Shown here in pieces: positions 42,297 to 45,517 of a DNA stretch of 46,443 nt (positions within the stretch are counted from its first letter, which is position 1; each line of letters opens with the position of its first letter). The notes below the pieces were generated by a model that saw nothing but the letters and a program-made list of their open reading frames with translations, searched no databases and was not told the origin of the DNA. Both the position numbers and the translations under genes were made by a program. This DNA is from Roseibacillus sp. (GTDB lineage: Bacteria; Verrucomicrobiota; Verrucomicrobiia; Verrucomicrobiales; Akkermansiaceae): NCBI GenBank assembly GCA_002709395.1, contig PAQU01000079.1, positions 7,268 to 53,710 of the forward strand, written 5' to 3'.

Positions 42297-43829
42297 TCAG
42301 GGGTTTCGGTAGGCCCAGAGGTGATCTGTGCCCCGCAGGTAGATGGTGTCATGGTCGAGGGCGGGGGTAACGGAAGCCTCCTCGGGAAGCTGGAATCTCT
42401 GGACCATTTCAAATTCTTCGCCGGCCTTGACCACCGAGACAGTGCCCTCATCGGATAACAGATAGAGATGCCCGTTGGCGGCAACAGGGGAAGCGCTGTA
42501 CTGGCCGGTGCCCCCGAGTCTTCCACGATAGGTCAGCTTTCCCTTGTCCGGATCAACCGCCGCCAGAGTGCCGCCATTGCGGACCATGTAGATACGGTCC
42601 CGGTAAAAAAGCGGGGAAGGAATCTCAGGAACGCTGCGGTTGAGTTCCCAAGCGATGTGTTCCTTGCCCAGCTCTCCATTTCCACCGGGCTTGATAGCCA
42701 TGAGGATGGGGCGTCCGGGACGGTTGGAAATGTGGGAAGACAGCTCTTCCTCCGTCCATAGGTTATCGCGGTTCTTGTCCGCCCAGCCGAAGACACCCTG
42801 TTGTCGTTGACGGCGACGCTCCGGGTCGGAGGGAAGGGGAATCCCCCAGCCGGGATGCCCTAGGGGGAGCTCGGGCCTGAGGGGCCAGGTGAAGTGCTCG
42901 GTGATCTCGTCGCGGCCTATCTTGCCGTCCTTGTTCTGGTCAAATTTCAGCATTGCCTCCCAGAACGGCTTGGGGTCGATTTCGGCATCCGAGACCCCTC
43001 CGAGCTGGGCCGAGGAGATATAGACCTTTCCCTTTCCCTGAACCGGGACCGCTATGGTTTCTCGTGAAAACCCCCGTGCGAACCATTTTTCCTGTCCGCT
43101 GACCGGGTCGTAGCCGACCACCCGGCCATGACCGAGGATAACCAGTTCATCGCCGCCTTTGTGCTTCCAGATGGATGGTGTTGACCAGCCGCTCCGCAGG
43201 AAGGGTCGCGCCGTTTCCCAGACGAGCTTGCCGTTGGTGCGGTTGAATGCAACGACCCGGGATCGGCTGAGCTTACTCTTCTCAAGGTTTGCATCGTCGT
43301 CGATGACAAGGATCAGGAGGTTCCGGTATGCGATGGGAGAGGTCGAAGCTCCATACAGGCTTCGAGAGGCTTTGAGAGGCTTCTTCCAGATTTCCGTTCC
43401 GTCGTGGCGGTAGGCAATCAGGCCGTAAGAGCCGAAATAGACATACACGTTTTCCGCATCCACCAGAGCGGACGGAGAGGCGGCGTTGTTGGCCTTATGT
43501 ACCTTCTGAAGGGGACCTTTGGGGGCCATCCTGCGCCAGAGCTCCTTTCCATTCCTGCGATCGATGGCGATGGTAAGCAGCCGTTCCTTTTCGAAGGCAG
43601 TAAGGAAGAGACGGTCACCAGCGAGAACGGGAGAGGAAAGACCGGAGGGGACAGGAGTTTTCCATGCCAGTTTGGAAGAATCGATCTCGATGGGAGGTTT
43701 ACAGTCCTCTGCGACCCCGGAACCACCTGGGCCGCGAAACTGGTCCCAGTCTGTAGCAGAGGGGGAAGCGATGGTTGGGTTAGAACCAAGCAGGAGGCCG
43801 AGAGCGGCAGGGAAAAGTATACTTTTCAT
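42297..43829 (-). CDS. PQQ-binding-like beta-propeller protein with EF-hand pair
   Basis: DWDQFRGPGGSGVAED, LAWKTPVPSGLSSPVLAGDRLFLTAF, KELWRRMAPKG, EF-hand-like FDQNKDGKIGRDEI and ADKNRDNLWTEEEL; start at MKSILFPAALGLLLG. Confidence 0.88.
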   Translation of the reverse strand: MKSILFPAALGLLLGSNPTIASPSATDWDQFRGPGGSGVAEDCKPPIEIDSSKLAWKTPVPSGLSSPVLAGDRLFLTAFEKERLLTIAIDRRNGKELWRRMAPKGPLQKVHKANNAASPSALVDAENVYVYFGSYGLIAYRHDGTEIWKKPLKASRSLYGASTSPIAYRNLLILVIDDDANLEKSKLSRSRVVAFNRTNGKLVWETARPFLRSGWSTPSIWKHKGGDELVILGHGRVVGYDPVSGQEKWFARGFSRETIAVPVQGKGKVYISSAQLGGVSDAEIDPKPFWEAMLKFDQNKDGKIGRDEITEHFTWPLRPELPLGHPGWGIPLPSDPERRRQRQQGVFGWADKNRDNLWTEEELSSHISNRPGRPILMAIKPGGNGELGKEHIAWELNRSVPEIPSPLFYRDRIYMVRNGGTLAAVDPDKGKLTYRGRLGGTGQYSASPVAANGHLYLLSDEGTVSVVKAGEEFEMVQRFQLPEEASVTPALDHDTIYLRGTDHLWAYRNP

Positions 43830-43954
43830 GACAGTCGGGACGCTGGAGAGCATGATCCTACGATAGCAGAAGGGCGCTTTCAATCCTGACATATGAGGCC
43901 TCGGGAAAGGAACAGAAAGTTATTTGATGCTCTAACAATTATCATGTTTGAAAT

Positions 43955-43974
43955 GCAGAAAGAGAACTTTCTGC
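43955..43974. repeat. Perfect 8-bp hairpin GCAGAAAG-AGAA-CTTTCTGC
   Basis: Directly visible inverted repeat in intergenic DNA. Confidence 0.85.
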
Positions 43975-43996
43975 GGGGTGCAGGGGATTGCAGAAC

Positions 43997-44016
43997 AATC
44001 TAACAGAATCTAACAG
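43997..44016. repeat. Tandem 10-bp direct repeat (AATCTAACAG)x2
   Basis: Directly visible exact duplication. Confidence 0.9.
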
Positions 44017-44042
44017 ATAGGTCTGATTTCTGGAGGACAAGC

Positions 44043-44148
44043 GACATTCCGGAGGGTGTAAATGGTCGGAAGGGGAGCCAGAAAAGCCGGTTCTTCCCCA
44101 TGCAAGACATGTATCCACTGATTATTCCCAAAGGTTTTCCGGAATGTC
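44043..44148. repeat. 11-bp perfect inverted repeat (GACATTCCGGA ... TCCGGAATGTC) flanking about 84 nt
   Basis: Arms at 44043-44053 and 44138-44148, extendable by GU pairs; nested GGGGA/TCCCC hairpin at 44072-44099. Confidence 0.8.
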
Positions 44149-44253
44149 TGGAAGAAAAAGGGATTGTAACTCCCTCATTCTGAGAAGGCGAATCGTCCTG
44201 CCCTCATGTTATTCACAACATGCTCTCTTTTAGTGCTTTATGTAGATTATTGG

Positions 44254-44282
44254 TTGACCGTATTTTCCCCTCATGCTTTGAT
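44254..44282 (+). promoter_or_regulatory. Putative sigma70-type promoter of the large RNA
   Basis: TTGACC, 17-nt spacer, TTTGAT (each partial consensus match). Confidence 0.4.
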
Positions 44283-44288
44283 CAGGGC

Positions 44289-45369
44289 GTTCCTGAAAGG
44301 GGACTTGCTCTTTGACAGAACAAGGGCGCGAGTGAGGCGCAAGCCAAGCTCAAGGCGCTCCGGGATAAACCCAGGTGAAAACCTGGACAATGGTCGGGAG
44401 GAACTGGCGTTCCCGGCCCCTGTGAAATCGGGATTATTCATTAATGATGAAATCTGACTTCGCAGGCCACATCTCACCGGCTTCCTCGGAAAGGGTCGTT
44501 CCTTTCCGCGTTCAACGACCAGGAAGTCAGGCGGTAAGCGGTCCCGGGTTGTCACACGAATCAAAGTGGGGCAGAACGGGGAAACCAGCTGCAAGCCGAG
44601 TTATGCTTCAAGCGGTCCGTGGATTTGGACCCTGAGGTGAACACAGTCAGTCGACCTTAGACTGTCAGTTGCTACTGTGAGCCAGTGTGGTGATCCACCA
44701 CCCGACGGTGTCGAACGAACTAAATGCCGTTGTATCTATCTGGTGTCGCAACCGGATCGAGAAAAGAGGGATGGAACACCGCGGATTGAACGCTTTTCTG
44801 TGAACGCGCCGGGAGGCCGGCGAGGAACAGGAGGGGGTGATAAGATCCGAATACTGGGAGGCTCGCCCCAAAGGAGTGGAGTCGTCCAGAAGAGAAGGTA
44901 AAGGCAACTTGAGGGGTAAGAGACAAGACCCGTGGCGCGAGGCCAACGATCCGTGACTTACAGCTGTTTACAGCCTGTCGCAGATGCCGACCTCGTGCAA
45001 ATGGCAGGAGAAGTGCTCATTCTCAGAGCGCATCCCAAGCCAGGTTCAGCAGACGTTCGCTTGCAAGGCGGGCAGAGGCCGGGCCAAGAAGTCTCACCCG
45101 ATAAGTTGACGGTGCTTGCACTGTCAACCGGTTCCGCTGCGGGACCGGAACGGAATGCAATCGTTCATGCAGACCAGCGCAGCGTCGGGAAACTGACAGC
45201 CAGCAACACTCGACGGGTGAAGCTGGGCGCCAAATGTCAGTGTTCGGGGAAAGAGAGCGTGGCGAACTCCCAAGCCCCAGCCTTCGGTCAGGCCTCGGCC
45301 CGGCTGAAAGGATTAACCAAAGATCGAATTCGAAGAATTGGCCCGCGGACACTTGTCGGCGGGCCTTTT
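44289..45369 (+). ncRNA. Candidate large structured non-coding RNA (about 1.05 kb), family not recognised
   Basis: No credible protein; hairpins include CCAGGT-GAAA-ACCTGG (44371-44386), GGTCGTT/AACGACC (44494-44520), GTGGTG-ATC-CACCAC (44687-44701), CGCCGG-GAGG-CCGGCG (44807-44822), TTGACGGTG-CTTG-CACTGTCAA (45106-45127), CCGGTTCCG-CTG-CGGGACCGG (45128-45148), GTCGG-GAAA-CTGAC (45184-45197). Colinear long-range helices join 44308-44334 to 45207-45255; terminator at 3' end. Confidence 0.65.
45340..45369 (+). terminator. Strong rho-independent terminator at 3' end of the large RNA
   Basis: GGCCCGC-GGACACTTGTCG-GCGGGCC followed by TTTT; inner GAC/GTC pairing. Confidence 0.85.
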
Positions 45370-45517
45370 CATGTACCCGGGTCCAGGCATGGCTCCCGGG
45401 GCTGATTATTTGTGGTGTTTCCTGCGGGAATCCGTTCAGAATTACGCACCCTTTCCACCGGAGCCGAAAGGACGAGTGTTCCGAAGCCGTTTGATATAAC
45501 CTGATTCGTTCCAGATC

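Follow-up and report, generated by a model that had tools for sequence, protein, structure and literature searches.

A 46,443-nucleotide stretch of Roseibacillus sp. DNA (hereafter the window) holds a free-standing gene for MISL RNA with its own predicted promoter, leader, core and intrinsic terminator. The gene belongs to the MISL family (RF03079), an assignment we regard as practically certain, and the explanation that accounts best for the whole of the data is probably that of a trans-acting RNA whose transcription would be controlled by DnaA and assisted by Nus antitermination. The family itself is already catalogued and is attributed to Weinberg et al., 2017 (in PMC10925082). What seems to be the new part is the combination, across Verrucomicrobiota, of paired DnaA-type sites and an rRNA-type boxA. 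This regulatory anatomy appears to be unreported in the literature that we searched, a scope outside which the original description of MISL lies. To our knowledge, most giant-RNA classes of bacteria have no assigned function, and a phylum-wide sequence link of MISL to DnaA and to an rRNA-type boxA makes the function of this RNA open to experiment.

The Rfam search matched RF03079 at 44363-45270 of the + strand with a score of 327.1 bits (E 4.1e-97), the gathering score being 274.6, and the alignment covers model positions 1-751 of 751 without truncation. The window gene is thus like the catalogued family in matching every model position above the gathering score, on the same strand and in single copy. 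It differs in its length of about 900 nt, a longer form than the 751 positions of the model, the extra ~150 nt being insertions typical of its Verrucomicrobiota family, and in having a boxB-like hairpin, a boxA, a stem P1, upstream DnaA-type boxes and a terminator, all of which are absent from the model. The predicted fold of the window RNA (-374.8 kcal/mol) beats 20 of 20 dinucleotide shuffles (z = -5.96). In a 12-sequence alignment made up of the genus of the window, the sister genus g3 and one outside sequence, two-sided changes that keep the pairing were counted at 95 of 230 consensus pairs, on RNAalifold's own structure and not on that of Rfam. These compensatory changes among relatives, together with the Rfam match and the shuffle score, bear out the structured non-coding RNA gene of about 1 kb that an earlier note on this DNA had placed on the + strand at 44289-45369.

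The part of that interpretation which did not stand is the class. The earlier note had taken the RNA to be of unknown and, by inference, new class and had named beforehand a significant hit to a known family as removing this novelty; the match to RF03079 is such a hit, and a new class is rejected by it. MISL was the sole Rfam match even with E values up to 1 allowed, and OLE, GOLLD, ROOL, RNase P, tmRNA and group I and II introns gave zero matches, so that these other named families are excluded at that sensitivity, as had been proposed. The window RNA does resemble OLE, GOLLD and ROOL (PMC12286853) in being a large, ornate non-coding RNA without known function, but has no Rfam match to any of the three over this range of E values. 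Between the divergent PQQ-propeller genes, which by gene layout occupy 42297-43892 on the - strand and the region from 45518 on the + strand, lies a gap at 43893-45517 that contains no ORF of more than 157 aa, in agreement with the remark that nothing convincingly coding lies there. A protein-coding region was also tried and rejected, as no conserved ORF was found, and the "VIPKGF" upstream reading frame of congeners is closed in the window. ORFs of up to 157 aa do exist mechanically in the gap and could be read as a decayed protein-coding segment, but the full-length Rfam match, the covariation and the lack of a conserved protein leave this reading, and equally that of a wholly new RNA class, with a negligible probability.

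RF03079 ends short of conserved 5' parts of the gene, which is relevant to the design of RNA constructs for SHAPE or cryo-EM. Alignment of 24 to 34 loci revealed a conserved leader 5' of the Rfam model. Transcription is expected to start at 44289 from a predicted sigma-70-type promoter at 44254-44282 of the + strand, consisting of TTGACC (44254-44259), a 17-nt spacer and TTTGAT (44277-44282). TTGAC is kept in 12 aligned upstream regions (read by eye), and congeners have TTAGAT as the second hexamer. The predicted transcript opens with a boxB-like hairpin at 44289-44304 (GTTCC-TGAAAG-GGGAC, taken from the hairpin listing), whose stem is constant and whose loop is variable in relatives (GTTCCTTCGGGAAC, GTTCCGAACGGAAC, GTCCTTCGGGAC). 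It lies directly 5' of the boxA-like element TGCTCTTTGACA at 44306-44317, and the succession of hairpin and boxA in the lineage of the window is the order of boxB-boxA. Between boxA and the Rfam model lies the leader stem P1 (44324-44360), in which 44324-44329 pairs with 44355-44360; a stem is present at this position in 33 of 34 leaders despite their unrelated sequences, the 34th having been missed by the search pattern. At the 3' end, an intrinsic terminator at 45340-45369 is formed by the stem 45340-45346/45359-45365 followed by TTTT, with two-sided changes among relatives (alignment columns 1167-1193). A simple consensus scanner lists neither the promoter nor the terminator of the window, and both calls are based on their conservation among relatives, which upholds the claim that the gene carries its own. 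The proposed ends hold as well, 44289 being the expected transcription start and 45369 the final T of the terminator. Further upstream, a block at 44120-44182 that is non-coding in the window is conserved in congeners as ATTCCCAAAGG..TTTCCGGAA..GGATTGTAACTC..TCATT.TGAGAA.

The most conserved block of the leader across loci is TTCTTTGACAGA, which has the form of an rRNA boxA and of which TGCTCTTTGACA is the version in the window. The strict boxA pattern was found in 63 of 98 loci that had been fetched independently by a pattern for the RNA core, against a background of 4 matches in 2.4 Mb of strand of random DNA (0.0017/kb). Several of the remaining loci have the variant CAGTTCATTGAAAGAACTG instead. 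The arrangement is like that of rRNA operons, in that a hairpin precedes boxA close to the 5' end of a long, structured and untranslated RNA, and the likeness extends to sequence, as some MISL-bearing genomes have a near-identical boxA in their rRNA operons. Among the five genomes that this comparison covers (no rRNA was found in Opitutaceae-type genomes or in the genome of the window itself), G159 has GTTCTTTGAAAG both in its 16S leader and at MISL, G059 has the near-identical GTTCTTTGACAA 3' of 16S, G280 and G325 have the near-identical GCTCTTTGACAT 3' of 16S, and G023 matches less well in its 16S leader (GTTCTTTTAAATG). In E. coli, the rRNA boxA prevents the Rho-dependent repression that a long untranslated RNA would otherwise bring about (PMC4807359). 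It is likely, judging from these resemblances, that MISL uses antitermination of the rRNA type. The difference from rRNA operons is that MISL RNA is non-ribosomal and that an effect of NusB/NusE at MISL is a prediction. In L097, L103, L147, L163, L181, L184 and others the place of boxA is taken by a variant leader element, the near-palindrome CAGTTCATTGAAAGAACTG, which may be a lineage-specific boxA. In nine Opitutaceae-type genomes that carry GTTCCTTGATAGAAC, it occurs once, at MISL.

A second conserved signal lies upstream of the promoter, where TTATTCAC(A) was found across MISL loci. There it occurs 3.1 times per kb in one set of 34 loci and 3.3 times per kb in a further 98, an enrichment of about 750-fold over the 0.0042 per kb found for 1.2 Mb of DNA from three genomes. 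Reversed or shuffled control words reach 0-0.03 per kb in the same upstream DNA, and 3' of the RNA core TTATTCAC itself reaches only 0.03 per kb. The distribution of the sites has its maximum 80-120 nt upstream of boxA. Under a looser site definition, same-orientation pairs are spaced by 2 bp in 71 loci and by 3 bp in 14, and each of the other spacings within 0-12 bp accounts for 0-3 loci; 1.2 Mb of random DNA yielded two box pairs in total. Across the phylum, 81 of 132 upstream regions have a double box with 2-3 bp spacing and 51 have no pair by this criterion. Relatedness and partial redundancy among the 132 loci mean that box counts should not be read as independent events. The enrichment is not circular, because the core pattern that fetched the loci sits outside the upstream DNA. 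It would be possible to see in MISL an ordinary RNA, long catalogued, with a constitutive promoter, and in the upstream and boxA signals a coincidence of alignment; we consider this highly improbable given enrichments of about 750-fold and higher and a sharp spacing peak in loci chosen by the RNA core alone.

In E. coli, DnaA has a preference for double boxes separated by 2 or 3 bp, from which it regulates transcription (PMC11317965). With respect to the order of the work, TTATTCAC was noticed first, the published 2/3 bp preference was learnt afterwards and only then was the spacing measured, which means that it was not preset. The MISL sites resemble the DnaA-regulated promoters of E. coli in being 9-mers paired 2-3 bp apart upstream of a promoter; they differ in preceding a giant non-coding RNA, in belonging to another phylum and in being predicted sites. 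Close pairs of TTATTCAC are rare, with four in 20 genomes, three of them at MISL, and in G092 the four sites within 56 bp at MISL form the densest cluster of the genome. TTATTCAC also occurs in the dnaA promoter of several MISL-bearing genomes. In the window, the candidate double box GTATCCACT-GA-TTATTCCCA at 44111-44130 of the + strand matches TTATNCACA in 6/8 and 7/8 positions, with 2 bp between its halves, and recurs in the congeners L027, L028 and L113 as TTCTCCACC-GG/GA-TTATTCCCA. A perfect DnaA-box-like site, TTATTCACA, lies at 44209-44217 (+); the 46 kb window has no other TTATNCACA, and the position of this site is conserved across the family. As the upstream region in the window contains one imperfect pair and a perfect box whose partner is weak, the case for DnaA is built on the family. 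These double boxes, like boxA, were missed by the earlier note and lie partly beyond 44289-45369. We judge that there is a good chance that DnaA regulates MISL through the predicted double boxes. A second, diverged copy of MISL in G156 (L026) has neither upstream TTATTCAC sites nor the TAAGAG core motif and is a candidate paralogue or decaying copy.

The same sites invite two further readings. Firstly, TTATTCAC could be recognised by another protein, a MISL-specific transcription factor, with DnaA uninvolved. Its scarcity over the genome and its concentration at MISL would suit such a factor, but TTATTCAC fits the DnaA box TTATNCACA, its 2-3 bp pair spacing matches the preference of DnaA exactly, it is found in dnaA promoters as well as in intergenic box clusters, and no conserved neighbouring gene offers itself as the factor. 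This makes the proposal unlikely. Secondly, the boxes might serve replication, either as a datA/DARS-like titration or reactivation locus or as an origin, with MISL transcribed alongside or remodelling the site. DARS2 of E. coli likewise has a double DnaA box (PMC11317965), and up to four boxes at MISL, as in G092, would be in keeping with it. Their fixed position relative to boxA, beside the promoter, is that of a regulator, however, and other evidence points the same way: in G092 and G325 MISL lies away from GC-skew switches and in G100 near the presumed terminus, in a coarse sampling of 20 stretches per genome that is noisy in G100; MISL and dnaA are anywhere between 0.036 and 0.36 of the genome apart; and congeners that have no MISL are viable. 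A replication origin at MISL was rejected for the three sampled genomes, on the lack of a presumed-origin skew switch there and on the variable dnaA distance, and the wider replication-locus reading is doubtful. Intergenic clusters of 4-5 DnaA-type boxes with TTTCAAAC/GTTTGAAAC repeats were seen elsewhere, at 7960-8250 of L276 (G280) and 7603-7940 of L275 (G325). They are unlinked to dnaA, and coarse GC skew shows no switch at the G325 cluster; they look origin-like and are candidates for replication origins or DnaA-titrating loci.

Regulation of MISL by DnaA remains the preferred reading, and a model can be drawn from it. By binding to the double boxes that precede the promoter, DnaA would link transcription of MISL to the replication-initiation cycle. 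BoxA would then recruit NusB/NusE, and RNA polymerase would escape termination by Rho over some 1 kb of structured, untranslated RNA. Once made, MISL would work in trans, either as a structured RNA or within an RNP. That it goes as far as a replication-coupled giant RNA of Verrucomicrobiota, timed by DnaA at the double boxes, made efficiently by way of boxA and acting in trans in a process of growth or the cell cycle, is a proposal to which we give an even chance; on that reading the DnaA regulon would include a large non-coding RNA.

Of 291 genomes sampled from the phylum, 24 carry MISL, as do 11 of 145 from the family. A DNA pattern of the RNA core, built from Verrucomicrobiota sequences, hits at least 80 named records, and all those among the matches listed are titled Verrucomicrobiota or subgroups of it. 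No partner gene is conserved across families. Neighbours that vary between families while the RNA is kept are what one would expect of a trans-acting RNA, and we hold it very likely that MISL is one. Most of the Opitutaceae-type loci examined, L065 among them, have a divergent gene for an HrpB-like DEAH helicase upstream of MISL, and some have TypA/BipA downstream, both assigned by eye; these neighbours are confined to the Opitutaceae-type family f5.

In seven congeners without MISL (L281-L284, L286, L288 and L289) the same two PQQ genes adjoin each other divergently across a short gap, and comparison of the loci indicates that the whole of MISL is missing there as one unit. In an eighth congener, G315 (L291), most of the gene is gone: ~1156-1313 of the reverse complement, next to the downstream PQQ gene, holds just the final 160 nt or so of MISL with the terminator. 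This fossil has no Rfam match and argues for loss of MISL. Since most genomes of the phylum, and at least eight congeners, do without MISL, a core or essential role in replication is unlikely, and from this genome comparison MISL is dispensable. The assemblies of MISL-free congeners are mostly smaller (3.5-4.0 Mb) than the MISL-bearing ones (up to 5.1 Mb).
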